Source of the DNA: Candidatus Flavonifractor merdigallinarum
Lineage (GTDB): Bacteria; Bacillota; Clostridia; Oscillospirales; Oscillospiraceae
Direction of reading: 5' to 3'
Assembly (NCBI GenBank): GCA_019115265.1
Contig: DXDX01000077.1
Location: forward strand, 1 to 45,113
Length of the DNA stretch: 45,113 nt
Positions within the stretch are counted from its first letter, which is position 1, and each line of letters opens with the position of its first letter. Of this stretch, positions 20,280-35,764 are shown in pieces. Position numbers and translations under genes: made by a program. Below the pieces are notes generated by a model. The model was not told the origin of the DNA and did not search any database. It saw only the letters and a program-made list of their open reading frames with translations.

Positions 20280-20881
20280 TTCTCAACGCCAGCCCCCGGG
20301 CCCCCAAGTCCAACTCCAAGCGCTACGCCCAACTCTTTGCGGAGCAGTGCTCTCTACCCTCGGAGACCTGTAACGTCACCCGGAACAACCATCTGGAGCT
20401 GTGCGAAAAGCTGAACGCCTGTTCCCAGGTGCTGCTGGTCTTTCCCCTCTACGCCGACGCCATTCCGGTTACGCTGCTGAACTTTTTCAAGACGCTGGAG
20501 CAGCACCCACCCAAACAGAAACCCACCGTCTCGGTACTCATCAACTGCGGCTTTCTGGAGCCCCACCAAAACGATGTGGCGGTGGACATGGTGAAGCTCT
20601 TCTGCAAGCAGAACCACTACCCCTTTGGCTCGGTACTCCAGCTGGCCAGTGGAGAGGCCATTCTGGACACCCCCTTCCGCTGGATTGCCCGCCGGGCCAT
20701 TGGGAAGCTGGCCCGGACGGTGGCTAAGGGGAAACACTGCACCATCCGGGCGGCCATGCCCATCCCCAAGTCCTGGTTTATCCGGGCCTCCACCCAGTAT
20801 TGGACCCAATACGGACAGCGCAACCACGTCTCCCCGGAGGAAATGCGCACCATGTCCATTGAGGGACGGGAGTTGGAATAG
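20264..20881 (+). CDS. flavodoxin-fold oxidoreductase
   Basis: ATG 20264 lies seven bases after AGGAGG and inside the end of the previous gene. The 205-residue protein starts with the flavodoxin-like phosphate loop strand MADVLILNASPRAPKSNSKR, which binds the FMN phosphate in this fold. It then has VLLVFPLYADAIPVTLLNF, another family hallmark. It is cytosolic. The tight overlap with the upstream flavoprotein suggests paired expression. No specific substrate can be named. The structured repeat element begins 20 bases after the stop. Confidence 0.85.
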   Translation: MADVLILNASPRAPKSNSKRYAQLFAEQCSLPSETCNVTRNNHLELCEKLNACSQVLLVFPLYADAIPVTLLNFFKTLEQHPPKQKPTVSVLINCGFLEPHQNDVAVDMVKLFCKQNHYPFGSVLQLASGEAILDTPFRWIARRAIGKLARTVAKGKHCTIRAAMPIPKSWFIRASTQYWTQYGQRNHVSPEEMRTMSIEGRELE

Positions 20882-20900
20882 GCCAGATTTGGATGGTCTA

Positions 20901-21344
20901 ACCGCCCAAGGCGGGGAGGGTTTGTCCTCGCCGGACGGGCCGCCTACTCGGCGGGAGCACCGCTTTCTTTGCCAAAGAAAGCGGTGGGAAAGAAAGCGCA
21001 GAGGGGGGATACCCCCCTCTGCACTCCCCCAAGACGCAACCGGGCTTAAGTTCTGCTGCGGTGGGATTTCCCCACCCTGGCATAGCAAAAAACCGACCTT
21101 GGTGCCTATGAGGGAAGTGTTGTACTGCCATGCAAAACAGGTAACCGCAGAAATTGTAAGTCACCGCCAAAAAATGGGGCGGCCCCCTTTAAAAGGCCGC
21201 CCTTTTGGAGGGGAGTGGAGAGGGGAACGAGAAGTGCCCCTCTCCGCCTTTTCTTTCCCCGGTTTCTTTTCCGCGAAAAGAAACCGGGCGCTGTCCGCGT
21301 AGGACGCCCGCGCGGCGAGCGCAAAACCTCCCGGCTTGGCCAGG
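20901..21344 (+). repeat. dispersed multi-hairpin element, copy 1
   Basis: This non-coding element of about 445 bases has a second copy at 35312-35764. Hairpins in order: GTCC/GGAC (20924-20936), CCGCC/GGCGG (20940-20954), a long stem at 20958-20986, 20998-21022 (11 bp), a variable hairpin near 21060-21077, GGGCGGCC/GGCCGCCC (21177-21202), 21217-21245, a 14-bp stem at 21258-21288, and GTCC/GGAC (21293-21305). A conserved linear block lies at 21107-21149. The ends pair with each other (ACC and CCAAG at 20901-20910 with CTTGG and GGT at 21335-21344). No convincing gene lies inside. It follows a plus-strand gene and precedes a terminator. Confidence 0.85.
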
Positions 21345-21353
21345 TACACCAAT

Positions 21354-21389
21354 AAAGACGGATCTGCATACGCAGGTCCGTCTTTTTTC
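21354..21389 (+). terminator. terminator downstream of repeat copy 1
   Basis: A 14-base stem containing one G-T pair (21354-21367 with 21372-21385) is followed by TTTTTT. It separates the oxidoreductase and repeat transcript from the SWIM operon promoter. Confidence 0.88.
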
Positions 21390-21394
21390 TACAT

Positions 21395-21422
21395 TTGCAT
21401 TCCAGCATTTTTGTGGTAAAAT
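21395..21422 (+). promoter_or_regulatory. promoter of the SWIM/MoxR/VWA operon
   Basis: TTGCAT (21395-21400), 16 bases and TAAAAT (21417-21422) lie 80 bases before the first gene and directly after a terminator. No other clear promoter is seen in the next 12 kb of this strand. Confidence 0.6.
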
Positions 21423-21502
21423 GGAGAAGAATCAGCGAAATTACGCAAAAATAGTCCCTTAATCGTGACATATCCCATATTTATGCAAAAGAAGGTGTTC
21501 CT

Positions 21503-22945
21503 ATGGAATTGACCGAGCAATTCATCCTGCTCCAGGCGCCCAACTCCGCCGCGGCGGAAAATGGCCGCAAGCTCTCCCGGACGGGCAAATTTGTCCACCT
21601 GTACAAGACGGAGGACGGCTCCCTCTACTGGGGGGAGTGCGCCGGCAGCGGCAAGAATCCCTACCGGGTGTCCATCGACTGGACGGACCCCAATTCCCCG
21701 GTGTGCCGGTGCTCCTGCCCCAGCCGCCAGTTCCCCTGCAAGCACGCCCTGGGGCTGATGTTTGAGCAGCTCAGCGGCAAGACCTTTGAGGTCGCCGAAA
21801 TCCCCCAGGATATCGCGGAGAAGCGGGCCAAGCAGGCCGCTCGGGCCGCCAAAAAGGAGGCGGACGCCCAGGCCCCCAAAAAGCCCCGCAAGACCAACAC
21901 CGCCGCCGCAACCAAGCGCCTCAACCGCCAACTGGAAGGGCTGGATATGGCGGATCGGATGGTGGAGGACCTTCTGAGCGCCGGTATTGGCAGTCTGGGC
22001 GGCACCTCCGCCAAGACCTATGAGACGCTGGCCAAGGAGCTGGGCAACCACTACCTCACCGGCCCCCAGACCGCCTTCTCCCGCATCGCTCTGGCGGTGA
22101 AGGACATCCAGAAGTCCCCTGACCAGGCCAAGGGCGCCTATGCCGAGGCCCTGCGCATTCTCATCGCCTTGCGCTCCACCATCAAAAAGGGCCGGGCCTT
22201 CCTCCAGGAAAAGCTGGAGGCGGGACAGTTCTCCGCCGAGGACACGGTGCTCTTTGAGGCCATGGGCGGTGTGTGGAAACTGGAGGACCTCCACGCCATC
22301 GGGGCCTACCGGGAGAATGCCCGCCTGGTACAGCTCTCCTTTGATGTCTCCTATGACGCAGCCAAGAAGGAGTATGTGGAGCGGGGCTTCTGGCTGGATT
22401 TGGACAACGGACACATTGACCAGACCCTCAATCTCCGCCCGGTGAAAGCCCTCCAGCATGTGAAGGGGGAGGACAGCTGCTTCTCCCTGCTGGAGGTGCC
22501 GGTGCTGTACACCTACCCCGGCGAGGGCTGCCGCCGCATCCGCTGGGAGGGCTGCGCCCCCCGGGACTTGACCCCGGAGGAGAAAGCCACTCTCCCCACG
22601 CTGGCCCAGCCCGACCTGGCCACCGCCATCAAGCTTACCAAGGGGCAGATTAAAAACACCCTCCTGCCCAAGTTCCTGCCGGTGCTGGTGCCGGTGGGAC
22701 AGGTGGGCACCATAGAGGGCACCTTTGTGCTGGAGGACCCCGCCGGAGGGCGCATTGTCCTGCGGGACCGCCCGGAGGACGGCGAGGACCACAACTCCAC
22801 CGCTCGCCTGGCCTCGGTACCCGACGGCCTGAACCGGGGGGACGCCCTCTTTGGCCTTTTGTTCTACGACCACCGGGACCGCTCCCTGTGTCTCCACCCG
22901 TACAGCGTAGTCACCCCCACCCAGATCATCCGTCTGCAATACTAA
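21503..22945 (+). CDS. SWIM zinc-finger protein
   Basis: This 480-residue cytosolic protein has a SWIM-type zinc finger near the N-terminus: CRCSCPSRQFPCKHALGL, with Cys70, Cys72, Cys79 and His81 as the CxC...CxH ligands. SWIM fingers bind nucleic acid or partner proteins. Residues 95-135 form a Lys/Ala-rich helix. The large remainder is alpha-helical followed by a beta-rich C-terminal part with no motif I recognise. ATG 21503 follows AAGAAGGTG. It opens a seven-gene operon, and the first HEAT-like gene starts within about 15-30 bases. Its likely role is targeting for the MoxR/VWA machinery downstream; this is an inference. Confidence 0.9.
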   Translation: MELTEQFILLQAPNSAAAENGRKLSRTGKFVHLYKTEDGSLYWGECAGSGKNPYRVSIDWTDPNSPVCRCSCPSRQFPCKHALGLMFEQLSGKTFEVAEIPQDIAEKRAKQAARAAKKEADAQAPKKPRKTNTAAATKRLNRQLEGLDMADRMVEDLLSAGIGSLGGTSAKTYETLAKELGNHYLTGPQTAFSRIALAVKDIQKSPDQAKGAYAEALRILIALRSTIKKGRAFLQEKLEAGQFSAEDTVLFEAMGGVWKLEDLHAIGAYRENARLVQLSFDVSYDAAKKEYVERGFWLDLDNGHIDQTLNLRPVKALQHVKGEDSCFSLLEVPVLYTYPGEGCRRIRWEGCAPRDLTPEEKATLPTLAQPDLATAIKLTKGQIKNTLLPKFLPVLVPVGQVGTIEGTFVLEDPAGGRIVLRDRPEDGEDHNSTARLASVPDGLNRGDALFGLLFYDHRDRSLCLHPYSVVTPTQIIRLQY

Positions 22946-22973
22946 GGGGGGAGCGGTTACGAACGTACAGCCT

Positions 22974-24896
22974 TTGTATAACGTACAGGAGCGGCTGGAG
23001 CAGGCCGCTGTGGCGGGCACCAACCTGCTGGGGGAGGATTTCCGCCTGAAGCGGGCTATGGAACATCTCGCCCCCCTGGCCGCCGCCAGTCCTGTCTTTG
23101 GGAAAATCGGCGCCGCTCTGGAACATCTGCTCTCCGCGCCCCCGGAGAAGCGGGGCGGAGCGCTGCTGGACACGTTGGCCCTGGTGGACGCGGTGGTGTA
23201 CACACAGGGGAAAGCGGGCTGCTCCGGCACTCTGGAACCCCTGCCCCATGGAGTAGGCACCTGCCAGCCCCTCACCTATACGCAGCTCCAGCCTCTGCTG
23301 GAGGCCCTCACCGGCACCGGCAGCGGGCGCTACGCCGTAATTACAGAGTTCTGGCAAACCCACCCGGAGTACTTCTCCGACTACCGGGTGCTCCCCCTTC
23401 TGGTGAAGGGGCTGGGGGACAGCTATTCCACGCTGGCAGAGGAAAACCGGGACCGGCTCATTCAGCTGGGTCCAGCGTCCATTCCCCTTCTGAAAGAGGG
23501 CTTTGACCCCGCCGGAAAGCGGGAGATGGTCTACCGGGTGATGGTGCTGGACGCGGTGGCGGGGGCGGCGGAAAATGACTTCTACCGCGCCCAGCTCCCC
23601 AACGCCAAGCGGGAGGTGCGGGGGGTGCTGATCTCTGCGCTGCAATACCATCCCGACAACCTCCCTCTCCTGCTGGAGCTGTGCCAGAAGGAGCGGAAGG
23701 AGGACAACCGGAAGCGAGCCTGGAGGGCTTTGGCCCAATTTGAGAGCCCAGAGGTGGAAGCGGCCCTGAAACAGCTGTCCCAAACGGACTGGGAACTGGC
23801 AATGTACACCCTGGCCCACACAAATACCTCCATTGCCAGCCGTCTGACTGCCCAACTCTTTGAGGAGGAGCTGGCCCTCTTTGACGCAGATCCAGATCGC
23901 CCCCTCACGGCGGAACATACCCCCCGCTTCCGAAAGCTGCTTGACGCACTGTATGGGAAAACCGGACCGGAGGTGTGCCAGCTCTACCGCCACGCCGCCG
24001 CTCTCACTCCCGTGCTGGAGCGGCCCCTGGATGATGGCCACCAGGTGCCCCGTTACATGCGGTTTCCCCACTACACCGCTCCCAGCCGGGAAGGCCATCT
24101 GTTTGGGCGGTGTCTAGCGTGGACGCTGGCCCATACTCTGATGCTCCATCCCGATGGGGAGCTGTGCGATGTAGCTCTGGAGCTCTACGAGCAGGACAGC
24201 GCCACCCATTTTGCGCCCGCCCTGGTGGCTCAGCTCCATCGTCTCAGCAGTGGAGAGAGCTACCAGTGGGCGGCGGAGCAGATGCCCCAGAATGCCGTCC
24301 TCCGCCAATCGGCCATTCAGACCTGTATCGAGGTACTAGGACGTCTGGTCTGGAGTTCGGCTCAGCAGACCTATGGCTTTAAAAATTGGATGGTCGATCA
24401 CAATGACCGGCTCTGCTGGCACACCACCCCCATTCCCAACCTGGATGTGCGTTGGTTCTCTCTGTTCGCCCAAAGTCCCGACCAGGCCTATGCCGTTCTG
24501 CTCAGGCTGCTGCATCAGCGGGAGGCCATTCTCAATCTCCCGCCGCAGGTGCTGAACTGCCTCTATGAACAGACCTTACAGGCAAACAATTTCAGCCGCG
24601 CATTGGATGCCATCTCCATTCTCTGCGCCCAGGGATGGAGTGATTGGGACGATTTTGTGGTGAAGTGGGCCAACTCCAGAGAAGCTCAAGCGATGGGGGT
24701 CAACTTCTGGGAGGTGTTCCGTCTCTTGGAGAATCTCCCCATCCCGCCCGAAAAGAAAGCCGATCAGCTTCAAACCATCCACGATCTGATGGTTTCCAAA
24801 AAGCTCAAAGTCTGCGCCTATCAGTCCTGGCTGGACGGAAGGGCCGTGGAGCAGATTGCCCTGTGGAAGCAGCAGGCATCCAAGTCCACCACCTAA
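22974..24896 (+). CDS. HEAT-like alpha-solenoid protein, tandem paralog 1 of 3
   Basis: This protein of about 640 residues is the first of three tandem paralogs. They share the N-terminal block QERLEQAAVAGTNLLGEDF and repeated helix pairs such as DYRVLPLLVKGL, PNAKREVRGVLISAL and DNLPLLLELCQKER, which look like HEAT repeats. The C-terminal landmarks are GWSDWDDF and LPIPPEKKADQL. There is no signal peptide or catalytic motif. The start is odd: the paralogs begin ATG AAT TTA CAG CCT TTG, but here the matching position (22959) reads ACG AAC GTA CAG CCT TTG. Either ACG is used, with GGGGGGAG seven bases upstream, or the TTG at 22974, which is far from the ribosome site. The likely job is a binding scaffold for the MoxR/VWA pair (inference). 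Confidence 0.8.
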   Translation: MYNVQERLEQAAVAGTNLLGEDFRLKRAMEHLAPLAAASPVFGKIGAALEHLLSAPPEKRGGALLDTLALVDAVVYTQGKAGCSGTLEPLPHGVGTCQPLTYTQLQPLLEALTGTGSGRYAVITEFWQTHPEYFSDYRVLPLLVKGLGDSYSTLAEENRDRLIQLGPASIPLLKEGFDPAGKREMVYRVMVLDAVAGAAENDFYRAQLPNAKREVRGVLISALQYHPDNLPLLLELCQKERKEDNRKRAWRALAQFESPEVEAALKQLSQTDWELAMYTLAHTNTSIASRLTAQLFEEELALFDADPDRPLTAEHTPRFRKLLDALYGKTGPEVCQLYRHAAALTPVLERPLDDGHQVPRYMRFPHYTAPSREGHLFGRCLAWTLAHTLMLHPDGELCDVALELYEQDSATHFAPALVAQLHRLSSGESYQWAAEQMPQNAVLRQSAIQTCIEVLGRLVWSSAQQTYGFKNWMVDHNDRLCWHTTPIPNLDVRWFSLFAQSPDQAYAVLLRLLHQREAILNLPPQVLNCLYEQTLQANNFSRALDAISILCAQGWSDWDDFVVKWANSREAQAMGVNFWEVFRLLENLPIPPEKKADQLQTIHDLMVSKKLKVCAYQSWLDGRAVEQIALWKQQASKSTT

Positions 24897-24926
24897 AATC
24901 AAATCCGTTTCCCAAAGGGGGATGTT

Positions 24927-26858
24927 ATGAATTTACAGCCTTTGTACGAACTCCAAGAGCGGCTGGAGCAGGCTGCGGTGGCGGGCACCAACCTGTTGGG
25001 GGAGGATTTTCGCCTGAAGCGGGCTATGGAGGGCCTCGCCCCGCTGGCCGCCGCCAGCCCTGTTTTTGCAAAAATTGGCGCCGCTCTGGAGGAGCTGCTC
25101 TCCGCGCCCCCGCAAGGGCGGGGCGGTGTGCTGCTGGACACTTTGGCCCTGGTGGACGCGGTGGTGTACACCCAGGGGAAAACCGGCTGTCCCGGCACTC
25201 TGGAGCCTCTGCCCCACGGGATAGGCACCTGTCAGCCCCTCACCTATACACAGCTTGGTCCCCTGCTGGCGGCCCTCAACGGCACCGGCAGCGACCGCTA
25301 CAACACCAGTGAGGAGTTCTGGAACACCCATCCCGAGTACTTCACCGACTATCGGGTGCTCCCCCTGCTGGTAAAGGGGCTCAAGGACACCGGTTTCTGT
25401 ATGGCGGAGCGAAACCGGGACCGTCTCATTCAGCTGGGGACGCTGTCCTTTCCCCTTCTGAAAGCGGACTTTGACCCGGCGGGCAAGCGGGAGATGGTCT
25501 TTCGGGTCAACATTCTGGACAAGGTGGCCGGGGCGGCGGAAAATGACTTCTACCGTGCCCAGCTCCCCCACGCCAAGCGGGAGGTGCGGCAGGCGCTGAT
25601 TGCCGCCCTGCGGCATGATCCCGCCAATCTCCCTCTGCTTCTGGAGCTGTGCCAGAAGGAGCGGGCGGGCAAAAATCAGGACCAGGCGTGGAAAACCCTG
25701 GCCCAACTGGATCACCCGGAGGTGGAAGCGGTCCTGTATGAGCTGTCCCGCAAGGACTGGCGCCAGCTTCTCTACATCCTGGACTATACCCCGGAACCCA
25801 TCGCCTCCCACCTGACCGTTCGGCTCTTTGAGGAGGAACTGGCCCCCTTTGAGGCGGAGCCCGAGCGCCCCCTGACAGAGGAGAACGCCTCCCGCTTCTC
25901 CACGCTGCTCCATAGACTGAAAGAAAAAACCGGGCCGGAGGTGTGCCAGCTCTATCGCCATGCTGCCGCCCTCGCCCCGGTGCTGGAGCGCTCCCTGGAT
26001 GGCAGCGGCCAAACACCGAACTGTATGCGGTTTTCGCATTACACGGCGCTGAATTCCGATGGGCTGTTGTTTGGGGAGTATTTGGGGTGGATACTGGCCA
26101 ATACCCTCATGCTCCACCCCGATCGGGCGCTGTGTGCACTGGCTCTGGAGCTGTATGAGGAGTATGGTACCTCCTATTTTATCCCCGCCCTGACGGTCCA
26201 GCTCCTGTGTCTGGACAGCGCGGAGTGCTACCAGTGGGCGGAGGCACAGCTTCCCCCGGACGGCCCGCTCCGCCGCTGGATGATGCAGGCCTTTGTGTGG
26301 ATATTGGGGTATCTGAGGTGGAGCCCGGAGAAAGAGACCTATTTCTTCCATCAGGGGTGCTACGACTATCAGGTGGAATTCCACTGGTACGACAACTACA
26401 TTGCCAATCTGGATGTGCGGTGGTTTCTCCTGCTCACGCAGAATCCCGACCCGCCAAGCGCCCTTTGGCGCGAGCTGCTGCTCTATCGTGAGGTCATCCC
26501 CGGTCTCTCTCCGCAGGTGCTGGAGTTCCTCTATGGGCAGATCTTCCAGGGGCTCGATTTCAGCCCTACACACAACATCATCGACATTCTCCACACCCAG
26601 GGCTGGAGCGATTGGGACGACCTTGTGGTCAAGCTGGCCAAATCCAGAGCGATGCAGCGCGTGGGAATCCGTCCTGGGCATATTTTCAGCTTTCTGGACG
26701 CGCTGCCGGTTCCCCCAAAACAGAAGGCCGCTCAGCTCCAGAAAATCGACCAGCTGGTGCTGGCCCGAAAGCTCCAGACAGAAGGCATCTGGCCCCGCGA
26801 TCAGGTGCAGGAACACATCAAGCAGTGGAGGCAGCAGGCTTCCACACCCACCAACTAA
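24927..26858 (+). CDS. HEAT-like alpha-solenoid protein, tandem paralog 2 of 3
   Basis: This is the 643-residue second member of the tandem triplet. ATG 24927 follows AAAGGGGGATGTT, a leader copied almost exactly before paralog 3. The first third is nearly identical to the other two (AAVAGTNLLGEDFRLKRAME, LVDAVVYTQGKTG, PHGIGTCQPLTY). The middle has HEAT-like helix pairs (HAKREVRQALIAALRHDPAN, HPEVEAVLYELSRKDW). The C-terminal third differs strongly apart from GWSDWDDLVVKLAKS and ALPVPPKQKAAQL. It is cytosolic, with no catalytic residues recognised. The 30-base spacing on each side fits one transcript. A divergent C-terminus behind a constant N-terminus suggests a common docking end and a variable client-binding end. 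Confidence 0.85.
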   Translation: MNLQPLYELQERLEQAAVAGTNLLGEDFRLKRAMEGLAPLAAASPVFAKIGAALEELLSAPPQGRGGVLLDTLALVDAVVYTQGKTGCPGTLEPLPHGIGTCQPLTYTQLGPLLAALNGTGSDRYNTSEEFWNTHPEYFTDYRVLPLLVKGLKDTGFCMAERNRDRLIQLGTLSFPLLKADFDPAGKREMVFRVNILDKVAGAAENDFYRAQLPHAKREVRQALIAALRHDPANLPLLLELCQKERAGKNQDQAWKTLAQLDHPEVEAVLYELSRKDWRQLLYILDYTPEPIASHLTVRLFEEELAPFEAEPERPLTEENASRFSTLLHRLKEKTGPEVCQLYRHAAALAPVLERSLDGSGQTPNCMRFSHYTALNSDGLLFGEYLGWILANTLMLHPDRALCALALELYEEYGTSYFIPALTVQLLCLDSAECYQWAEAQLPPDGPLRRWMMQAFVWILGYLRWSPEKETYFFHQGCYDYQVEFHWYDNYIANLDVRWFLLLTQNPDPPSALWRELLLYREVIPGLSPQVLEFLYGQIFQGLDFSPTHNIIDILHTQGWSDWDDLVVKLAKSRAMQRVGIRPGHIFSFLDALPVPPKQKAAQLQKIDQLVLARKLQTEGIWPRDQVQEHIKQWRQQASTPTN

Positions 26859-26888
26859 AACCGGACGTATCTCCAAAAGGGGGATGTT

Positions 26889-28832
26889 ATGAATTTACAG
26901 CCTTTATACGATGTACAGGAGCGGCTGGAACACGCCGCTGTGGCGGGCGCCAACCTGCTGGGGGAGGATTTCCGCCTGAAACGGGCTATGGAAGGCCTCG
27001 CCCCGCTGGCCGCCGCCAGTCCTGTCTTTGGAAAAATCAGCGCCGCCCTGGAGGGGCTGCTCTCCGCGCCCCCGGAGGGGCGGGGCGGGCGTCTGCTGGA
27101 CGCCCTGTCCCTGGTGGACGCGGTGGCGTATACCCAGGGGAAAACCGGCTGCCCCGGCGCTTTGGAACCGCTGCCCCACGGCACAGGCACCTGCCAGACC
27201 CTCTCCTACCGGCAGCTCCAGCCGCTGCTGGAGGCCCTCACCGGCACCGGCAGCGGGCGCTATGGCACCTTGGAAGAGACTTGGAAGGAACACCCGGAGT
27301 ATTTCTCCGACTATCGGGTGCTCCCCGCCCTGGTGAATGGTCTGGGGGACAGCTATGGCGATTTGGCCGAGCAGAACCAAAAGCGCCTCATTCAGCTGGG
27401 CCCCGTGTCCATCCCCCTTCTAAAAGCGGGCTTTGACCCGGCCGGGGGCAAAGACATGGTCCGCCGGATGACGGTGCTGGACGCGGTGGCGGGGGCGGCA
27501 GAAAACGACTTCTACCTCGCCCAGCTCCCCGAGGCCAAAAAGGAGGTTCGCGCGGCCCTCATCTGCGCCCTACGGCATGACACGGACAACCTCCCCTTCC
27601 TGCTGGATTTGCTTCAGACGGAGCGGAAGGGGGAGGCCCGCAGCCGAATCTGGCGGATTTTGGCCCAGATGGAGGGGCCAGAGGTGGAGGAAGCCCTGCA
27701 ATCCCTGGTGAAAAAGGACTGGATGCAGGCGGTGGAGGCGCTGTCCTACTCCAATTCCCCGCTGGCCTGCCACCTCACCGTCCAGCTCTTTGAGGCGGAG
27801 CTGGAGCCATACGAGGCGGATCCAGACCGCCCGGTCCCCGAGGAGATGAAGCTCCGCCTGGAGGCCCTCACCACCGCTCTGGACTGGAAGGCCGGGCCGG
27901 AGGTGTTCCAGCTCTACCGCCGGGCCGCCGCAGTGGCCCCCGCTCTTACCTACCTGACCACCAAAAATGGCAAGCGGGAAATCATGCGCTTCCCCCACGC
28001 CCTGGCCACCCAAAAAGGGGCCACCTTCCAGCAGCTTATACCTCTGGTGCTCACCTATACCCTGATGGGCAGCCCGGATACCGAACTGTGCCGTCTGGCT
28101 TTGGAGCTGTATGAGCAGTACGGCATAGACTACCTGGCCCCCGCCCTCACCGCCCAGATCTGGCAGCTGGACAGCAAAGAGAGCTACCAGTGGGCGGAGC
28201 AGCAGGTGGTGAAATCCGGTGTGCTGGGGGAGTCCATCCGCGGCGAGGCGATACGGCCCCTGCAAATCGCGCTGGGGCGGCTGAACTGGTATTCTCAAAA
28301 GGAATCTTACCTGTATTCCCGCCCCCGAAACACATTGGCCAAACAGGTCGCCTGGACTTATACTCTGGTGCCCACCCTGGACCCTCGGTGGTTTACCCGC
28401 ATGACACAGGCCAAGGGCGGAATGGACGAAATTTTGGTGCGCCTGCTGCACCAACGGGAGTCCATCCCGGAGCTGTCTGACCAGGTGCGCACCTACCTCT
28501 ATCAAATGGCCATGCGCTGCTCAGAATGGAACCGTCTGCTGGAGGTCATCACCGTTTTAAAGAAGCAAAACTGGAGTGATTGGGACAATTTTGCCCTCAA
28601 GTATCTCCAGAAAAACGGCCGGCCCTTCTACCACTGGGAGATTTTCAACCTGGTAGATGAAATGCCCATCCCACCCTTGCAGAAGGTGGAACAGCTTCTG
28701 ACCATTGGCGGGCAGATCTGGGATAAGAAAATTAAAATCCGGGGCGGAAGTTGGCCGTCTGTCAATGTCCAGCGGCAAATTGCGATCTGGGAACAGCAGG
28801 CACAACTGGAAGGAGGAAACGGACATGTCTAA
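26889..28832 (+). CDS. HEAT-like alpha-solenoid protein, tandem paralog 3 of 3
   Basis: This is the 647-residue third member of the triplet, starting at ATG 26889 after AAAGGGGGATGTT. It keeps the common N-terminal block (QERLEHAAVAGANLLGEDF) and the helix-pair middle (AKKEVRAALICALRHDTDN, EGPEVEEALQSLVKKDW). It is the most diverged in the C-terminal half, which is richer in Tyr, Lys and Arg; NWSDWDNFALKYLQKNG and MPIPPLQKVEQL mark the shared positions. Its last eight bases overlap the start of the MoxR gene, so translation is probably coupled and this copy may be the closest partner of the ATPase. The function is unknown. Confidence 0.85.
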   Translation: MNLQPLYDVQERLEHAAVAGANLLGEDFRLKRAMEGLAPLAAASPVFGKISAALEGLLSAPPEGRGGRLLDALSLVDAVAYTQGKTGCPGALEPLPHGTGTCQTLSYRQLQPLLEALTGTGSGRYGTLEETWKEHPEYFSDYRVLPALVNGLGDSYGDLAEQNQKRLIQLGPVSIPLLKAGFDPAGGKDMVRRMTVLDAVAGAAENDFYLAQLPEAKKEVRAALICALRHDTDNLPFLLDLLQTERKGEARSRIWRILAQMEGPEVEEALQSLVKKDWMQAVEALSYSNSPLACHLTVQLFEAELEPYEADPDRPVPEEMKLRLEALTTALDWKAGPEVFQLYRRAAAVAPALTYLTTKNGKREIMRFPHALATQKGATFQQLIPLVLTYTLMGSPDTELCRLALELYEQYGIDYLAPALTAQIWQLDSKESYQWAEQQVVKSGVLGESIRGEAIRPLQIALGRLNWYSQKESYLYSRPRNTLAKQVAWTYTLVPTLDPRWFTRMTQAKGGMDEILVRLLHQRESIPELSDQVRTYLYQMAMRCSEWNRLLEVITVLKKQNWSDWDNFALKYLQKNGRPFYHWEIFNLVDEMPIPPLQKVEQLLTIGGQIWDKKIKIRGGSWPSVNVQRQIAIWEQQAQLEGGNGHV

Positions 28833-29916
28833 CCAAAAAGTACAGCGTCTCCCGGCGGAGGAACTGTTCCAGCGGGAGCTGGAGGCCCTCATCGCCGCGG
28901 AGCAGGATGCCATTCCCACTGGGTGGCGGATGTCCCCCCGCTCGGTGCTCACCTATATCACCGGCGGCGTCAAGGTCAAAGGGGTGGAGATTACCCCCAA
29001 GTATATGGGCAACCGCCGCCTGGTGGAAATCGCCATTGCCACTCTGGTCACCGACCGGGCGCTGCTCCTCATCGGGGAGCCGGGCACTGCCAAGTCATGG
29101 CTCAGTGAACATCTGGCCGCCGCCGTCAACGGGGACTCCACCAAGGTCATCCAGGGTACTGCCGGCACCACCGAGGAGCAAATCCGCTACTCCTGGAACT
29201 ACGCCATGCTCATCGCCAAGGGCCCCAGCCCGGAGGCCATGGTGAAAAGCCCCATCTACCGGGCTATGGAGAGCGGCTCCATCGCCCGTGTGGAGGAAAT
29301 CTCCCGCTGCGCCAGCGAGGTGCAGGACGCCCTCATTTCCATTTTGTCGGAAAAGCGTCTGAGCGTCCCGGAGCTGGGGCTGGAAGTTCCAGCGGCCAAG
29401 GGCTTCTCGGTCATCGCTACCGCCAACACCCGGGACAAGGGGGTCAACGACATGTCCGCCGCCCTCAAGCGCCGGTTCAACATCGTGGTCCTCCCCACCC
29501 CCTCCGATTTGGAGACGGAGCTGGAAATTGTCCGCACACGGGTGGAGCAGCTCTCCGCGGGGCTGGATTTGAACGCCCAGCAGCCCGACGGGGACACCGT
29601 GGAGCAGGTGGTCACCATCTTCCGGGAGCTGCGGGGCGGGGCCACCCTGGACGGCAAGCAGAAGCTGAAAACTACCAGCGGCGTCCTCTCCACCGCCGAG
29701 GCCATCTCCCTGCTGGCCAACTCCATGGCGCTGGCCGGGAGCTTTGGCAACGGCACCATCTCGGCGGCGGATCTGGCCGCCGGTCTCCAGGGCGCGGTGG
29801 TCAAGGACGAGGAGAGCGACAAAATCTCCTGGAAAGAGTATCTGGAGAACGTGATGAAAAAGCGGGGCAGCGGCTGGCTCCCCCTGTATCGGGCCTGCCG
29901 GGAGCTGAATGCGTGA
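28825..29916 (+). CDS. MoxR-type AAA+ ATPase
   Basis: ATG 28825 follows AAGGAGGAAAC and overlaps the previous gene by eight bases; a longer frame from 28705 is not supported. The 363-residue ATPase has Walker A GEPGTAKS (84-91), a Walker B region reading IARVEEISRCASEVQDAL where MoxR proteins normally show a DE pair, sensor 1 in SVIATANTRDKGVND, and an arginine-finger stretch ALKRRFN. The glutamate is kept and the aspartate appears replaced by Glu. MoxR ATPases act as chaperones that assemble or activate client complexes with a VWA protein, which is encoded two genes downstream. It shares a four-base overlap with the DUF5682-like gene. Confidence 0.95.
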   Translation: MSNQKVQRLPAEELFQRELEALIAAEQDAIPTGWRMSPRSVLTYITGGVKVKGVEITPKYMGNRRLVEIAIATLVTDRALLLIGEPGTAKSWLSEHLAAAVNGDSTKVIQGTAGTTEEQIRYSWNYAMLIAKGPSPEAMVKSPIYRAMESGSIARVEEISRCASEVQDALISILSEKRLSVPELGLEVPAAKGFSVIATANTRDKGVNDMSAALKRRFNIVVLPTPSDLETELEIVRTRVEQLSAGLDLNAQQPDGDTVEQVVTIFRELRGGATLDGKQKLKTTSGVLSTAEAISLLANSMALAGSFGNGTISAADLAAGLQGAVVKDEESDKISWKEYLENVMKKRGSGWLPLYRACRELNA

Positions 29917-32177
29917 TGGGCGGGCCAGTGCTGTACGGGGTGCGCCACCTGTCCCCCGCCATGGCCTTCCACCTGCGGCAGGCGCTGGACGCCCATCAGC
30001 CCGCCCTGGTGCTGGTGGAGGGCCCCAGCGACCTCAATGACCAGATGCACTGGCTCTGCCATCCGGAGACCCGCTTTCCGGCGGCCATTCTGGCCTACAC
30101 CAAGACCCCGCCGGTGCGCACCATCCTCTATCCGCTGGCCATCTACTCCCCCGAATTGCAGGCCATTCTGTGGGCCCATGAGCACGGGGTGGAGTGCCGC
30201 TTTATGGACTTGCCCTCCGGGGCCATGCTGGCTCTGGAGGAGGGCTCCGCCCTTCTGGAGGACGAGGAAGAGCCAGAGGAAAACACCGAGTGGGTGTACC
30301 GCCGTCTGGAGGAGGTGACCGGGGAGGGCCACGACACCTTCTGGGAGCGGAAGTTTGAGCAGATTGGGGACTGGCAGACCTGCCAGAAGGCCGCCAACAC
30401 CTTCGGCGCCCAGCTGCGGGAGGCGGCCCAGGACGGCAAGCGCCGCACCGCCCAGACGCTGGTGCGGGAGGCGTACATGAAGCGGGTCATCTGTGAGGCG
30501 GTGGACCAGGGGATTCCCCCGGAGAAAATTTTCTGTGTCTGCGGGGCCTTCCATGTGCCCGGTCTGGAGGAAAACGCCCCCATGACCGACGAGGAGGAGG
30601 CCGCCCTCCCCCGGGCGGACTGTGCGGCCACCCTCATGCCCTACTCCTATTACCGCCTCTCCAGCCGCTCAGGCTACGGGGCGGGCAACAAGGCCCCCGC
30701 CTATTTTGAACTCCTGTGGGACACCCTCCACCGGGAGGGGCTGTCCGGCCTGCCCAGCCGCTATCTGGCCCATCTAGCTGAGGCCCACCGGAAGGCGGGC
30801 AACCTGGTGTCCTCCGCCGAGGTCATCGAGGGGGTACGCCTGGCCCAGACCCTGTGCGCCATGCGGGGCAGCCGCTATCCCTCTTTGGCCGATTTGCGGG
30901 ACGCCGCCATCACCACCATGGGCCACGGCAACTTTTCCGAGCTGTCGGTGGCCGTGGCGGAGACGGAGATTGGCCGCCGGGTGGGCTTTCTCCCCGAAGG
31001 GGTGAGCCGCACCTCGGTGCAGGAGGACTTCTACCGGCAGCTCAAGGAGCTGCGCCTGGAGAAATACCGGGGTCTGGAGCGCCAGCAGCTGGATTTGGAT
31101 TTGCGCGAGCGTCTGAATGTGAAAAACCAGCAGACCGCCCTGTTGGATTTGCGTCGCTCCTTCTTCCTCCACCGGCTGCGGGTGCTGGGCATCCACTTTG
31201 CCGCGCCCCTGCCCTCCCGACAGGAGGGGGCCAACTGGGGAGAATACTGGGATCTGCGCTGGACCCCCGAGGTGGAAATTGAAGTGGTGGAATCCTCCCT
31301 GCTAGGGGACACCATCGAGGGGGCCGCCGCCTTTGCCCTCAAGGAGCGGGGGGAGAACAGTACCTCCATTGGGGAGGCCGCCGCTATCTTCCAGGACGCC
31401 TTCCTGTGCGGGATGCCCGCCGCCGCTGACCACGCCCTTTCGGTACTGCAAAGCCTGTCAGTGGACGCCGCCGCCCTCACGGAGGTGGCGGAAACTGCCA
31501 GCCGCCTGTCCCTGGTGGTGCGGTACGGCGACCTGCGCCGGTTTGACGCCGCACCGGTGATGCCTCTGCTCCAGCAGCTCTATCTGCGGGCCTGCCTGAC
31601 GCTGGAAGATGCCTGCCAGTGTGATGCCAAGGCTGCCCCCGCTGTGACGGCTGCCATGGATCAGCTCAATCTGCTCCAGCTCAACCACGACTGTCTGGAC
31701 GAGGCGCGTTGGCTGGACTTGCTCCAGCGCATCTCCGACCGGGACGATTTGAACACCCGCTGCTCTGGCTTTGCCATGGCCATTTTGCTGGAGCGGGGCA
31801 AGGCAGACGAGGAACTGCTGGCCCGGGAAGTCTCCCGCCGCCTGTCCCCCGGCGTGCCCGCCGATTTGGGCGCGGGGTGGTTTGAGGGATTGGCGGGGAA
31901 AAACCGCTACGCCCTCATTGCCCGGCTCTCCCTGTGGCGGCACCTGGATGACTACCTCAATACCTTGGACGACGAGCACTTCCGCCGGGCGCTGGTGTTC
32001 CTCCGCCGGGCCTTTGCCGACTTCACCCCCAGCGAGAAAAATGACATTGCGGAAAATCTGGGGGAGATCTGGGGCATCAACCAGGCCCAGGCCGCCGAGG
32101 TGCTCATGGGGGATCTGAGCGAGAGCGAGCAGGAGGTACTCAGCGGCCTGGACGAGTTTGACTTTGACGACATCTGA
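29913..32177 (+). CDS. DUF5682-like protein with TraB/TIKI-type GxxH motifs
   Basis: This 754-residue cytosolic protein starts at GTG 29913 (or ATG 29916), inside the end of the MoxR gene. The N-terminal region has GVRHLSPA (GxxH, residues 9-12), LVEGPSD (Glu36) and, near residue 211, CGAFHVPGL (GAFH 211-214). Paired GxxH motifs with an acidic residue between them are the mark of the TraB/TIKI/ChaN-type fold, whose members include metal-dependent peptidases. The remainder is helical, with an acidic end (LSGLDEFDFDDI). To my knowledge DUF5682 proteins occur next to SWIM, MoxR and VWA genes in other bacteria. An effector or peptidase role is plausible but unproven. The gap to the VWA gene is 14 bases. 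Confidence 0.85.
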   Translation: MMGGPVLYGVRHLSPAMAFHLRQALDAHQPALVLVEGPSDLNDQMHWLCHPETRFPAAILAYTKTPPVRTILYPLAIYSPELQAILWAHEHGVECRFMDLPSGAMLALEEGSALLEDEEEPEENTEWVYRRLEEVTGEGHDTFWERKFEQIGDWQTCQKAANTFGAQLREAAQDGKRRTAQTLVREAYMKRVICEAVDQGIPPEKIFCVCGAFHVPGLEENAPMTDEEEAALPRADCAATLMPYSYYRLSSRSGYGAGNKAPAYFELLWDTLHREGLSGLPSRYLAHLAEAHRKAGNLVSSAEVIEGVRLAQTLCAMRGSRYPSLADLRDAAITTMGHGNFSELSVAVAETEIGRRVGFLPEGVSRTSVQEDFYRQLKELRLEKYRGLERQQLDLDLRERLNVKNQQTALLDLRRSFFLHRLRVLGIHFAAPLPSRQEGANWGEYWDLRWTPEVEIEVVESSLLGDTIEGAAAFALKERGENSTSIGEAAAIFQDAFLCGMPAAADHALSVLQSLSVDAAALTEVAETASRLSLVVRYGDLRRFDAAPVMPLLQQLYLRACLTLEDACQCDAKAAPAVTAAMDQLNLLQLNHDCLDEARWLDLLQRISDRDDLNTRCSGFAMAILLERGKADEELLAREVSRRLSPGVPADLGAGWFEGLAGKNRYALIARLSLWRHLDDYLNTLDDEHFRRALVFLRRAFADFTPSEKNDIAENLGEIWGINQAQAAEVLMGDLSESEQEVLSGLDEFDFDDI

Positions 32178-32191
32178 GGGAGGGAAGCGCC

Positions 32192-33364
32192 ATGGATTAC
32201 AGTGAACAGATGGCCCGTTGGCGGCTGATTCTTGGCTCAGAGAGCCAGGAGACCTTTGACGGCATGGGCGCCTCCCCCCTCTCCGCAGAGCAGCTCTTGA
32301 TGGACAGCGCCCTCTCCGCCATCTACGGCGGGCCGGGGGAGGGCTTTGGCGAGAAGGGGCGCGGCGCGGGCCGGGGGCCCTCCTCCCCCCACATCTCCAA
32401 GTGGCTGGGGGATTTGCGCAGCCTCTTTGACCCGGAGATGGTAGCGGTGGTGCAGAACGACGCCATTGAGCGCAAGGGGCTCAAGCAGCTTCTGCTGGAG
32501 CCGGAGCTGTTGGAGGGGCTGGAACCGGACTTGAACCTGGCCTCCACCCTTCTGATGCTCAAGGACCAGATTCCCAAAAAATCCAAGGAGTCCGCCCGGA
32601 AGTTCATCCGCAAAATTGTGGAGGAGATCAACAAGCTCCTGGAGCAGGATGTTCGCCGGGCGGTGACCGCCGCCCTCAATCGCCGGGCCCACTCCCCCCT
32701 GCCCAGCGCCGCCGCCATCGACTTTCCCTGTACCATCCGGCGGAATCTGCGCCACTACAACCCGGGGCTGGGGGCCATCATCCCGGAGCGGGTGTGGTTC
32801 TTTGACCGCTCCAGCCGCGCCAACCGCTGGCACATCATTCTGGACATTGACCAGAGCGGCTCCATGGGGGAGTCCATCCTCTACTCGTCGGTCATGGCCT
32901 GTATTCTGGCCTCCATGACGGCGGTGCAGACCCATGTGGTGGCCTTTGACACCCAGATCATGGACTTGACCCCCCTGTGTGCCGACCCGGTGGATCTGCT
33001 CTTTGGGTTCCAGATGGGGGGCGGCACCGACATCGCCAAATCCATCGCCTATTGTCAAGGGCTGGTGCAGGAGCCGTCCAGGACCATCTTCTTCCTCATC
33101 TCCGATTTGGACGAGGGCGGAAACCGGGCGGCGCTGCTCCGCCGGTTGGAGGAGCTGAAGGCCTCTGGGGTGACGGTGGTAACCATGCTGGCCATTGCCG
33201 ACGGCGGCAAGCCCTACTACGACGCCCAAACCGCCCAGCGCATCGCTGGAATGGGCATCCCCTGCTTTGCCTGTACCCCGGAAAAGCTGCCCCAGGTGCT
33301 GGAGCGGGTGCTCAAGGGGCAGAGTCTGGAGGAATTCGGGAAGCTGGACACCAAAAAGGCCTGA
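32192..33364 (+). CDS. VWA-domain protein with intact MIDAS
   Basis: ATG 32192 follows GAGGGAAGC. In this 390-residue protein the first 200 residues are helical and contain a basic stretch (LNRRAHSPLPSAAAID). The C-terminal von Willebrand A domain holds all metal-site elements: DQSGSM (Asp220, Ser222, Ser224), the GGGTDI threonine near 275 and SDLDEGG near 300. No signal peptide or membrane helix is present, so it acts in the cytosol. VWA proteins of this kind partner MoxR ATPases and bind clients through the MIDAS metal. It is the last gene of the SWIM/HEAT/MoxR/DUF5682/VWA operon and is followed by a strong terminator. Confidence 0.94.
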   Translation: MDYSEQMARWRLILGSESQETFDGMGASPLSAEQLLMDSALSAIYGGPGEGFGEKGRGAGRGPSSPHISKWLGDLRSLFDPEMVAVVQNDAIERKGLKQLLLEPELLEGLEPDLNLASTLLMLKDQIPKKSKESARKFIRKIVEEINKLLEQDVRRAVTAALNRRAHSPLPSAAAIDFPCTIRRNLRHYNPGLGAIIPERVWFFDRSSRANRWHIILDIDQSGSMGESILYSSVMACILASMTAVQTHVVAFDTQIMDLTPLCADPVDLLFGFQMGGGTDIAKSIAYCQGLVQEPSRTIFFLISDLDEGGNRAALLRRLEELKASGVTVVTMLAIADGGKPYYDAQTAQRIAGMGIPCFACTPEKLPQVLERVLKGQSLEEFGKLDTKKA

Positions 33365-33410
33365 ATCGCCACATAGTCTCTGAACGACAATTTCACCGGA
33401 CCATTTGGCA

Positions 33411-33458
33411 AAAAGAAGGACCCGTTGCAGAACAAAATCATTCTGCAACGGGTCCTTT
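33411..33458. terminator. bidirectional terminator after the VWA gene
   Basis: A perfect 17-bp stem (33416-33432 with 33441-33457) with an eight-base loop is flanked by A and T tracts. It lies between the VWA gene and the convergent zinc-ribbon gene. Confidence 0.88.
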
Positions 33459-33478
33459 GTCTGGTCACACAGCATTTC

Positions 33479-33766
33479 TCAATGGGACAACAAAAGCCAG
33501 GCCACAACCCCGCCGATGACCACAAGGCACACCAGCGCGGCCGCCAACGCCGCATAGGGTTTCTTCTCCGGCTCCCGCTTCACTGGGACAAACTCGTCGT
33601 CCTCATCCTCCCTGGATACTGTCTTTCTGATGTGAGAGGGATCTTTTTTCATCTTCTCATAGCTCAGAAGCACTCTGACATTGTCATCCAGGGATTCTCC
33701 GCACTGCTGGCAGAAATAGCGATCGTCCTCATTCTGGTGACCACACCGCTTGCATCGTTTCGACAT
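33479..33766 (-). CDS. zinc-ribbon membrane protein
   Basis: This 95-residue protein starts at ATG 33766 behind AAGAGGTGAAG. Its N-terminus is a zinc ribbon, CKRCGHQNEDDRYFCQQCGE, with Cys5, Cys8, Cys19 and Cys22 as ligands. A charged linker follows, then a single C-terminal membrane helix (about residues 69-92, AALAAALVCLVVIGGVVAWL). The ribbon therefore faces the cytosol on a tail anchor. Small proteins of this kind are common in Firmicutes and mostly uncharacterised. It is monocistronic and convergent to the VWA operon; the shared terminator is the only visible link. Confidence 0.88.
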   Translation of the reverse strand: MSKRCKRCGHQNEDDRYFCQQCGESLDDNVRVLLSYEKMKKDPSHIRKTVSREDEDDEFVPVKREPEKKPYAALAAALVCLVVIGGVVAWLLLSH

Positions 33767-33811
33767 ACTTCACCTCTTATCGTCTCAATTTTTCTCTGTG
33801 TTTTTACATTC

Positions 33812-33896
33812 TGGTACGGGTAGTGGGGGTCGAACCCACACGCCTTGCGGCACAGGAACCTAAATCCTGCACGTCTGCCAATTCCGCCATACCCGC
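33812..33896 (-). tRNA. tRNA-Leu(UAG)
   Basis: On the minus strand a complete 85-base class II tRNA folds. The acceptor GCGGGTA pairs with TACCCGT, the anticodon stem CAGGA pairs with TCCTG around the loop TTTAGGT (anticodon TAG), there is a long variable arm, the T loop is TTCGACC, and CCA is encoded (33812-33814). Confidence 0.96.
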
Positions 33897-33941
33897 ATAG
33901 AGGGACTTCCCCAGTTTAGCATTGAATGGGGAAAAAGTCAA

Positions 33942-33970
33942 TTGAAGCTGCGGCACAAAAGGGCTATAAT
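33942..33970 (+). promoter_or_regulatory. promoter of the pyridoxamine kinase gene
   Basis: TTGAAG (33942-33947), 17 bases and TATAAT (33965-33970) lie 40 bases before ATG 34011. Confidence 0.75.
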
Positions 33971-34010
33971 AGGCCAAACATGATTTTTTCCTTTAAAGGA
34001 GGCCATCCCT

Positions 34011-34853
34011 ATGAAACAGGCGCCCCAGGTGGCGGCCATCCACGATCTGTCCGGCTTTGGCCGCTGCTCGATGGGCATTGTGCTGCCGGTGCTGTCCGCC
34101 ATGGGCAACCGGTGCAGCACCCTGCTCACCGCCTATCTCTCCGCCCACACCGCCTACCCCCCCTCCGACCGCTCGGTCTTTCTGGACCTCACCGACCGGA
34201 TGGAGCCGGTCTGGTCCCACTGGGAGGAGCTGGGCGCCCGGTTTGACGCCATTTACAGCGGCTTTTTGGGCTCGGTGGAGCAAATTGATTTGCTGCGCAC
34301 CTTTGTCACACGCTTCCGCGGGGCACACACCCTGGTGCTGGTGGACCCGGTGATGGGGGACCACGGCAGGCCCTATGCCACCTATACCTCCGAGATGTGC
34401 GCCCGGATGGGTTCTCTGGCCGCCGAGGCTGACCTCATCACCCCCAACCTCACCGAGGCCGCCCTTCTGCTGGGGGAGCCCTATGAGGCCGCCCCCACCA
34501 CCCAGGCCGCGGCCGCACAGTGGCTACGGCGGCTCTCCATGGACGGAAAGCGCTCGGTGGTCATCACGGGGCTGTGTCTCACCCCCGGTCAGGTGGGGGC
34601 GGGCAGTCTGGACCGCACCACCGGCGCCATCTCCTTCGCCCAGGCCCCCGAGGTCCCCGGCCATTTCCCCGGCACCGGCGACCTCTTCTCCAGTGTGCTG
34701 TTGGGTGAGCTGCTCCGGGGCCGCAGCCTGGAAACTGCCTGCGCCCGGGCGGTTTCCTTTGTGCAGTGCTGCGCCGCCTACACCCTCCAGCTGGACACAC
34801 CGCTGCTGGACGGAGTGGAGTTTGAACCCCTCCTGCGCCAATTGATGGAGTAA
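34011..34853 (+). CDS. pyridoxamine/pyridoxal kinase (ribokinase family)
   Basis: This 280-residue ribokinase-fold kinase phosphorylates B6 vitamers in the PLP salvage pathway. The family features are an N-terminal HDLSGFGRCSMG, DPVMGDHG near residue 112, ITPNLTEAALLLGE, and the anion-hole motif GTGDLFSS with catalytic Asp224. It resembles the group annotated as pyridoxamine kinase in Firmicutes more than ThiD. ATG 34011 follows AAAGGAGG. The next gene encodes a PNPOx-fold protein, which fits B6 or flavin metabolism, although it has its own promoter. Confidence 0.92.
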   Translation: MKQAPQVAAIHDLSGFGRCSMGIVLPVLSAMGNRCSTLLTAYLSAHTAYPPSDRSVFLDLTDRMEPVWSHWEELGARFDAIYSGFLGSVEQIDLLRTFVTRFRGAHTLVLVDPVMGDHGRPYATYTSEMCARMGSLAAEADLITPNLTEAALLLGEPYEAAPTTQAAAAQWLRRLSMDGKRSVVITGLCLTPGQVGAGSLDRTTGAISFAQAPEVPGHFPGTGDLFSSVLLGELLRGRSLETACARAVSFVQCCAAYTLQLDTPLLDGVEFEPLLRQLME

Positions 34854-34879
34854 GCGGTCCCCCCTTGTTTGTCCAAATG

Positions 34880-34888
34880 TGCTATAAT
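34880..34888 (+). promoter_or_regulatory. extended -10 promoter before the PNPOx-fold gene
   Basis: TGCTATAAT is an extended -10 element 28 bases before ATG 34917. No well-spaced -35 box is seen. Confidence 0.6.
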
Positions 34889-34916
34889 AGAGCATATTTC
34901 AAAGGAGGGTTGCTTT

Positions 34917-35309
34917 ATGCAGGAAGTCTATGAATTTTTGAAAAAGTGCGGGACCTACTATCTGGCCACCGTAGAGGGAGACCAGCCCCGGGTGCGCCCC
35001 TTCGGCACCATTGACCTCTTCGAGGGCCGTCTCACCATCCAGACCGGCAAGGTGAAGGAGGTCTCCAAGCAGATTCTGAAAAATCCCAAGGTGGAGCTGT
35101 GCGCCTTTGATGGGGAGCGCTGGCTGCGTGTGGCGGCCACCGCTGTGGAAGAGCCCAAGGTGGAGGCCCAGGTACACATGCTGGACGCCTACCCCTCGCT
35201 TAAGAACATGTACCAGCCCGGCGACGGCAACACCCAGATTTTTGCCCTGGAGCAGATCACCGCCACCTTCTCCTCCTTTACGGAGGCACCCCGCACAGTG
35301 CAGTTTTAA
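34917..35309 (+). CDS. pyridoxamine 5'-phosphate oxidase-fold (flavin-binding) protein
   Basis: ATG 34917 follows AAAGGAGGGTT; the longer frame from 34869 starts upstream of the promoter -10 and is rejected. The 130-residue protein has the split-barrel pattern of the PNPOx-like family: EVYEFLKKCGTYYLATVEGDQPRVRP would be the first strand pair, then GRLTIQTGKVKEVSKQI and VELCAFDGERWLRV. Members bind FMN or F420 and include many uncharacterised reductases. A role near PLP metabolism is suggested only by the adjacent kinase. Repeat copy 2 begins just after the stop codon. Confidence 0.88.
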   Translation: MQEVYEFLKKCGTYYLATVEGDQPRVRPFGTIDLFEGRLTIQTGKVKEVSKQILKNPKVELCAFDGERWLRVAATAVEEPKVEAQVHMLDAYPSLKNMYQPGDGNTQIFALEQITATFSSFTEAPRTVQF

Positions 35310-35311
35310 GC

Positions 35312-35764
35312 GGTACCCGGCCAGGGCGGGGAGATTTTGTCCTCGCCGGACGGGCCGCCTGCTCGGCGGGAGCACCGCTTTCTTTGCCAAAGAAAGCGGT
35401 GGGAAAGAAAGCGCAGAGGGGGCAACCCCCTCTGCACTCCCCCCAATGCGCTCCCCGGCCAAATTTCACCTGCGGTGGGATTGCGCTGGTACGGTGCCAT
35501 TTGGGCGGGAGCTTCCCGCCTATGAGGAAAGCGTTGTACTGCCTTGCAAGACAGGTAACCGCAAAGACGGAAAGTCACCGCCAAAAAAATGGGGCGGCCC
35601 CATGAAAAGGCCGCAATTTTGGAGGGGAGTGGAGAGGGGAACGAGAAGTTCCCCTCTCCGCCTTTTCTTTCCCCGGTTTCTTTTCCGCGAAAAGAAATCG
35701 GGCGCTGTCCGCGTAGGACGCCCGCCCGGCAAGCGCATCCCCTCCCCTGTCCGGGGAAACTACC
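35312..35764 (+). repeat. dispersed multi-hairpin element, copy 2
   Basis: This second copy of the element at 20901-21344 has the same orientation and hairpin order: GTCC/GGAC (35339-35351), CCGCC/GGCGG (35355-35369), 35373-35401, 35413-35435 (10 bp, one G-C pair shorter than copy 1), a variable middle with GGCGGGA/TTCCCGCC near 35508-35522, GCGGCC/GGCCGC (35594-35614), 35631-35659, 35672-35702 and GTCC/GGAC (35707-35719). Its ends pair (35316-35333 with 35737-35756), using a sequence different from copy 1. It lies between convergent genes, beginning three bases after the PNPOx-fold stop and ending seven bases before the GNAT stop. Confidence 0.85.

Follow-up and report, generated by a model that had tools for sequence, protein, structure and literature searches.

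A high-copy family of non-coding repeats with inverted, hairpin-built ends at gene 3' ends in Flavonifractor, likely acting as two-way terminators

The stretch analyzed here, hereafter the window, is 45,113 nucleotides (nt) of Candidatus Flavonifractor merdigallinarum (assembly GCA_019115265.1, contig DXDX01000077.1, positions 1-45,113), one of the relatives of common gut bacteria. The window contains two copies of a non-coding element of ~445 bp, each lying between predicted genes (Table 1), and both copies belong to a high-copy repeat family. An earlier note on this DNA had located the two copies correctly, along with their shared orientation and order of hairpins. The repeats are non-coding and dispersed, their inverted ends are built of hairpins, and they are found at the 3' ends of genes. 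We consider it likely that they serve as two-way transcription terminators, and they are probably non-autonomous mobile DNA.

The element is GC-rich and is composed of two inverted modules of ~130 nt, each with five hairpins, flanking a variable core. Read inward, each module contains H1, a T-rich tract, H2, H3, H4, an A-rich linker, and H5. H1 is a short terminal hairpin of variable sequence. H2 has a 4-bp stem and a loop that is mostly TCGCC, the H3 loop is of the type T[AG][CT]NC, H4 is a long A-rich stem, and H5 pairs a G run with a C run. In the host-genome search, right ends match inverted left ends (71-79% in the longer such matches); that is, inverted terminal repeats are present. The core of copy 1 is 186 nt, and core sequence differs among species as judged by eye. 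No reading frame is common to 26 copies, the longest frame being 29-136 amino acids with strand and frame varying, and a coding core was ruled out on this ground.

The host genome (G000) is a fragmented assembly of 2.58 Mb in 219 contigs with a completeness of 82%. Its main comparators are Flavonifractor sp. An92 (G008) and Pseudoflavonifractor sp. MSJ-37 (G005), both of which we take to be cultured isolates. The An92 data comprise 926 kb; beyond five full contigs, these are stretches mostly picked around elements. Of the 34 An92 elements, 33 measure 379-407 bp and the other 238 bp, a set that omits two further ends cut off at contig ends. Two covariance models of the end module were used. R1 was trained on 50 ends from 26 copies, copy 1 included. 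R2 was partly trained on distant hits that it then re-finds, so its tallies are not independent.

Variant forms were also observed. At some MSJ-37 ends (e.g., L129 3006-3156), H1-H2 are replaced by an additional series of hairpins. A solitary half element in G006 (L125 8508-8641) ends shortly upstream of a putative mutS, and a second half element lies in MSJ-37 (C1 near 620382). In G101 (L263 12660-12900), other short repeats, GTCATTGCGAGG...GGCAAT, directly adjoin a module.

Table 1. Features of the two element copies and their neighboring genes in the window.
Feature	Coordinates	Strand	Basis
Copy 1 of the repeat	20900..21350	+	Sequence, host-genome matches
Copy 1 left end module (H1-H5, inward)	20900..21026	+	R1 match, 139 bits; copy 1 in training set
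Copy 1 H1 CCGCC-CAA-GGCGG, then T-rich tract	20902..20914	+	Alignment columns 9-21
Copy 1 H2 GTCC-TCGCC-GGAC, covarying stem, loop mostly conserved	20924..20936	+	Alignment
Copy 1 H3 CCGCC-TACTC-GGCGG, covarying stem	20940..20954	+	Alignment
Copy 1 H4, long A-rich hairpin	20958..20986	+	Alignment
Copy 1 H4-H5 linker, predicted pairing with opposite linker	20987..20997	+	Nearly invariant, no covariation evidence
Copy 1 H5, G/C-run hairpin, six run pairs (copy 2: five), minus-strand terminator-like	20998..21022	+	Alignment, terminator scan
Copy 1 core between modules, differs among species	21027..21212	+	By eye
Copy 1 inner hairpin and T tract, terminator-like	21177..21202	-	Terminator scan
Copy 1 right end module, same module inverted	21213..21345	-	R1 match, 130 bits
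Copy 1 H5' hairpin, then CTTTTCTTTCC	21215..21247	+	Alignment columns 329-361; terminator-like in copy 2 only, not copy 1
Copy 1 H4', long hairpin	21258..21288	+	Alignment
Copy 1 H2' GCGC-GGCGA-GCGC	21310..21322	+	Alignment
Copy 2 of the repeat	35312..35764	+	Sequence
Copy 2 left end module	35315..35439	+	R1 match, 132 bits
Copy 2 right end module	35627..35758	-	R1 match, 112 bits
Copy 2 terminator-like hairpin	35629..35661	+	Terminator scan
Copy 2 terminator-like hairpin	35594..35614	-	Terminator scan
Gene, stop codon 19 nt before copy 1, no Pfam match	20264..20881	+	
Next gene after copy 1, SWIM zinc finger, tandem site	21503..22945	+	
Gene ending just before copy 2, PNPOx_N	34917..35309	+	
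Convergent gene ending just after copy 2, GNAT	35771..36670	-	

A nucleotide search of the host genome returned 91 matching pieces, with the best 40 of 183 first-look candidates scored, and the 39 other long host matches share 81-92% identity with copy 1. R1 detects 150 or more end modules in the host, whose genome contains at least 75 elements; the whole-genome search proposed in the earlier note thus reveals a high-copy family. The repeat also bears on genome assembly: 28 of the 150 end modules listed have their start no more than 60 bases from the first base of a contig, which places the beginning of each such contig within an element. All ten genomes examined in the genus have matches to the end module, with 103 R1 ends in An92 and, per genome, 5 to 23 in the remaining eight, among the matches listed. 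Genus members counted in, R1 modules are present in 17 of 150 family genomes. R2 modules are present in 20 of the 150, among the matches listed; at the order level, the R2 count is 8 of 197 genomes, with 7 belonging to the same family. Beyond the genus, mostly H3-H4-linker-H5 is retained, as judged by eye. Carriage by plasmids or phages was rejected, as searches of both gave no match and one exact pattern from the element had no match in viral contigs. No description of this repeat was found by title or abstract start in the open-access literature. At the gathering score, Rfam 15 matched only a tRNA in the whole window and nothing in 12 related loci, in keeping with the earlier note's failure to recognize a known RNA family; with E up to 5, copy 1 has 29 weak matches, all far below the gathering score.

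The stems of the module covary, and its loops are conserved. In a MAFFT alignment of 26 host copies that was not fitted to structure, 17 of 124 predicted pairs changed on both sides. In an alignment of 72 distinct genus ends to the model, which was itself fitted to structure, 96.5% of cells are paired, compared to 74.8% in shuffles and at most 62.4% in slid registers. Double changes occupy 370 cells against a shuffled mean of 112, a level reached by 0 of 500 shuffles; further pair types are less clear (level reached by 47/500). The covariation foreseen in the earlier note is therefore far above controls. Two of its examples also hold, as the G/C-run stem changes in step (GGGGGG...CCCCCC in copy 1, GGGGG...CCCCC in copy 2) and the long stem retains pairing through a G-U. 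H2 stems occur in four main interchangeable forms (GTCC/GGAC, GCGC/GCGC, GCCC/GGGC, and GTGC/GCAC), the H2 loop is TCGCC in 41 of 61 sequences, and the H3 loop fits its type in 70 of 72. Pairing between the two linkers is predicted; they are nearly invariant, so this pairing is without covariation evidence.

The earlier note had also argued that the two ends of each copy pair in a compensating, covarying terminal helix. Over 26 copies, own-copy ends pair no better than ends from different copies (-22.3 vs -23.1 kcal/mol, permutation p=0.80), which gives no support to a single RNA closed by such a helix, and the end-to-end helix was rejected. Instead, both ends consist of the same hairpin module in opposite orientations, and their variable sequences form a local hairpin at each end (88.2% of H1 cells are paired in the 72-end alignment). 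Because the ends are inverted copies and the loops are conserved reading inward from either flank, the arrangement points to DNA ends or two converging transcripts, not one helix-closed RNA. The earlier choice among a non-coding RNA, a 3' untranslated region module, and a non-autonomous element thus stands insofar as the element is structured, non-coding, found in 3' regions, and probably non-autonomous, while the end-helix argument for an RNA falls.

Gene calls relied on an in-house codon score, for which 26 genes of the window served as the training set, and they are less reliable outside the host. Five of the 31 host loci examined had no gene on both sides and were left out of the orientation count; in the remaining 26, the flanking genes are convergent in 23 and tandem in 3. 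Stop codons are no more than 30 nt from the element in 19/26 cases on the upstream side and 21/25 on the other, and on both sides in 14 of the 23 convergent cases. In An92, 17 of 34 elements are convergent, 16 tandem, and 1 divergent, while 69 of 765 other junctions are convergent (Fisher P < 1e-8 for the host and for An92, each compared with these An92 junctions).

A strong hairpin followed by a T tract is present on both strands in 23/26 host and 30/34 An92 copies (53/60 in total). None of the shuffles carries such signals on both strands (0/78 host, 0/102 An92, 0/180 in total). A separate terminator scan gave 3 and 6 signals in the window copies, compared to 1.2 and 1.0 in shuffles. No sigma-70-like promoter was found in either window copy by a scan covering that type. 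At 14 orthologous An92 gene ends without the element, a hairpin follows the stop codon, its T run not always clear. In 11 of the 14 host counterparts, H1 of the element is the sole hairpin, and the other 3 retain their own hairpin; for one of these three (L092), the element is outside the 150 nt shown. These gene-end comparisons were made by eye.

The element is present at some corresponding sites and absent from others. The site between a lipid-kinase gene and a putative mnmG is filled in MSJ-37 and empty in G006, where the gap is 49 nt, and an element also precedes the putative mnmG in the host, An92, and G002. At another site (L103), the host carries the element and MSJ-37 a plain hairpin. 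In 4 of 14 comparisons of host element junctions, An92 is occupied as well. Gene order also appears to change at elements. Host element junctions have the same partner gene in An92 in 2/14 comparisons (one site) versus 20/22 controls, a weak comparison given the fragmented assembly and the tandem orientation of 19 of the 22 controls. For An92 against G006 and MSJ-37, 3/24 element comparisons are syntenic versus 52/88 controls whose gaps are 40 nt or longer (p=5e-5). With a gap of at least 80 nt, 27/52 controls are syntenic (p=0.001 vs the elements' 3/24), as are 17/25 strand-switch controls. Among convergent sites only, the counts are 0/10 versus 1/4, with too few controls to judge.

In some genomes, the elements cluster near dnaA. 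In G006, 6 of 7 elements are no farther than 60 kb from dnaA, on a single contig that also contains lepA, ricT, gyrA, dnaN, ychF, and, by eye, parA-like and parB-like frames. In MSJ-37 the count is 5 of 11, omitting a weak overlapping pair at C2 234 kb. Among the matches listed, 7 of 10 genus genomes have an element on the dnaA contig within ~60 kb, and in five of them (G000, G002, G004, G008, and G009) it lies within ~30 kb on the same contig; G001, G003, and G007 have none on the dnaA contig. Five genomes of other genera were chosen by the analyst from 17 with hits. Here, R2 hits lie ~5 kb (G089), 13 kb (G044), 31 kb (G101, one contig), and 55 kb (G127) from dnaA, and the only hit among the matches listed for G097 is on a contig other than that of dnaA. 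An92 genes with an ortholog in the G006 origin region number 41/255 within 5 kb of an element, 2/138 at 5-20 kb, and 0/450 beyond 20 kb; this tally is biased by the choice of stretches, and the dnaA positions are cleaner. In L150 (G130), a putative gyrB is flanked by modules, one on each side.

From these patterns, we infer that the element terminates transcription and that it moves. RNA polymerase arriving from either gene would meet H1 and its T-rich tract, then the inner hairpins, and stop; the host could therefore lose its native terminator. The conserved H2 and H3 loops on interchangeable stems may be handles by which a recombinase recognized the ends. Recombination between copies, or shared targeting, could have put elements at gene-order breakpoints, most densely near the replication origin. 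A bolder proposal joins these steps into a new class of mobile DNA, recognized by hairpin shape and loop and moved by a non-Y1 enzyme, that would settle at gene ends around the origin, take over host termination, and then become a joint for re-cutting origin-proximal gene order between species. We offer this proposal tentatively and regard it as possible but doubtful.

Several observations weigh against two-way termination and mobility. The convergent bias is strongest where copies are many, because the host and An92 fractions stand against 5/22 convergent sites in other genus members (25 elements given; the gene caller is window-trained), and copy 1 itself occupies a tandem site, with copy 2 convergent. 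The T tract after H1 is often weak: at least 4 T in 8 nt are present in 30/49 host ends and 10/64 An92 ends. Complete termination at H1 would leave the conservation of H2-H5 to be explained in some other way. In a strand test, G-T is commoner than A-C, but mostly from one or two columns. Direct repeats at own-copy ends are no longer than at cross-copy ends (4.46 vs 4.40 nt, p=0.41, 26 copies, with exact element edges uncertain), and thus no target-site duplication was found. The earlier note had named identical ends with such duplications as the mark of a simple miniature inverted-repeat transposable element (MITE); neither is seen, and the end sequences vary. Finally, no autonomous relative with the same ends was found in the 926 kb of An92, the other genomes having been seen as end-match lists only.

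The same data could instead describe a passive, MITE-like repeat, that is, functionless mobile DNA tolerated at gene ends and homogenized and shuffled by recombination. Its patchy presence, its expansion in two genus genomes, and the apparent loss of synteny at the An92 elements would all fit. Pneumococcal repeats share the convergent bias, which their authors say could be taken as a mark of parasitic mobile elements (PMC3049150). Terminator-like hairpins on both strands of most copies, the apparent disappearance of the native hairpin in 11 of 14 comparisons, and the absence of a target duplication are harder to reconcile with a functionless repeat, which we judge unlikely. The earlier note leaned toward a structured RNA, in which the folded transcript is the functional molecule. 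Strong covariation, conserved loops, and the predicted long-range linker-linker pairing are what such a molecule might display, yet one transcript would hold the motif once in sense and once in antisense. With own ends that do not covary together, no sigma-70-like promoter in either window copy, and no Rfam match at the gathering score, a functional RNA seems very improbable.

Closeness to dnaA in G006, MSJ-37, seven of the ten genus genomes, and four of the five analyst-chosen genomes of other genera, among the matches listed, raises the idea of an origin-linked chromosome element that is kept at set positions near oriC for segregation, topology, or replication. Against it, many An92 copies are on contigs with few or no G006 origin-region orthologs, sites differ between close species, three genus genomes have no listed match on the dnaA contig, and closeness could reflect early-replicating, highly expressed genes. 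Such a role is highly improbable in our estimation. Least credible is a REPIN moved by a RAYT (Y1 HUH) transposase. Its paired inverted hairpins, extragenic position, and many copies resemble the element, but no Y1_Tnp match was found in three copy-rich genomes, those of the host (82% complete), An92, and MSJ-37; Y1_Tnp is present in 5 of 10 genus genomes. A RAYT partner was rejected on this basis. Two-way terminators that are probably non-autonomous mobile DNA remain the reading that we favor.

Group IIC introns insert after terminators, with a preference for terminator hairpins. The element differs from these introns in its symmetric ends and the lack of a shared reading frame, and Rfam, which served as the intron-model check, gave no hit. 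It may be placed among the dispersed structured repeats of bacteria, as one that would work like SPRITE or BOX and appears to be built like an oversized REPIN. SPRITE, BOX, and RUP of Streptococcus pneumoniae are interspersed structured repeats that are enriched between convergent genes (PMC3049150). SPRITE is terminator-like, lies near 3' ends, and has been suggested to be co-opted as a terminator; it has one 18-bp duplex with AAAA/TTTT ends, is <200 bp, and is AT-rich, while BOX is modular and reaches 637 bp (PMC3049150). The element shares the convergent enrichment in the host and An92 and, with SPRITE, a stem plus T tract, though its H1 T tract is often weak. By description, it differs from SPRITE in being GC-rich and in having two inverted five-hairpin modules, covarying stems, and conserved loops. 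It also differs from the pneumococcal repeats in its bacterial group and in its clustering near dnaA in some genomes. REPINs, in which two inverted hairpin units form an extragenic, non-autonomous repeat population, occur with RAYT transposases (PMC3116915). The element likewise has two extragenic, inverted hairpin units, but it is ~445 bp with five hairpins per unit, and a Y1 transposase was not found in the two copy-richest genomes. MITEs are short, non-coding, and stem-loop rich, with inverted ends and many copies (PMC10969869). The element is likewise short and shares inverted ends, many copies, stem-loops, and the lack of a common frame, whereas MITEs are AT-rich and its own ends are conserved more as structure than as sequence. 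It also differs in that no target duplication was found, nor a parent transposon in the 926 kb of An92.

If our reading is true, the repeat replaces the host terminator at many gene ends and is a natural experiment in bacterial tolerance of mobile DNA. The conserved loops on freely exchanged stems would be a testable case for structure-based recognition. Its association with gene-order breakpoints and with the origin would tie the repeat to chromosome rearrangement in these relatives of common gut bacteria.

Between the two window copies (21503-33364) lies a cassette-like row of genes encoding a SWIM zinc finger protein, a HEAT-repeat protein and similar long proteins, a MoxR-type AAA protein, DUF5682, and VWA_CoxE. 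A tRNA is located at 33815-33896 of the window on the minus strand.

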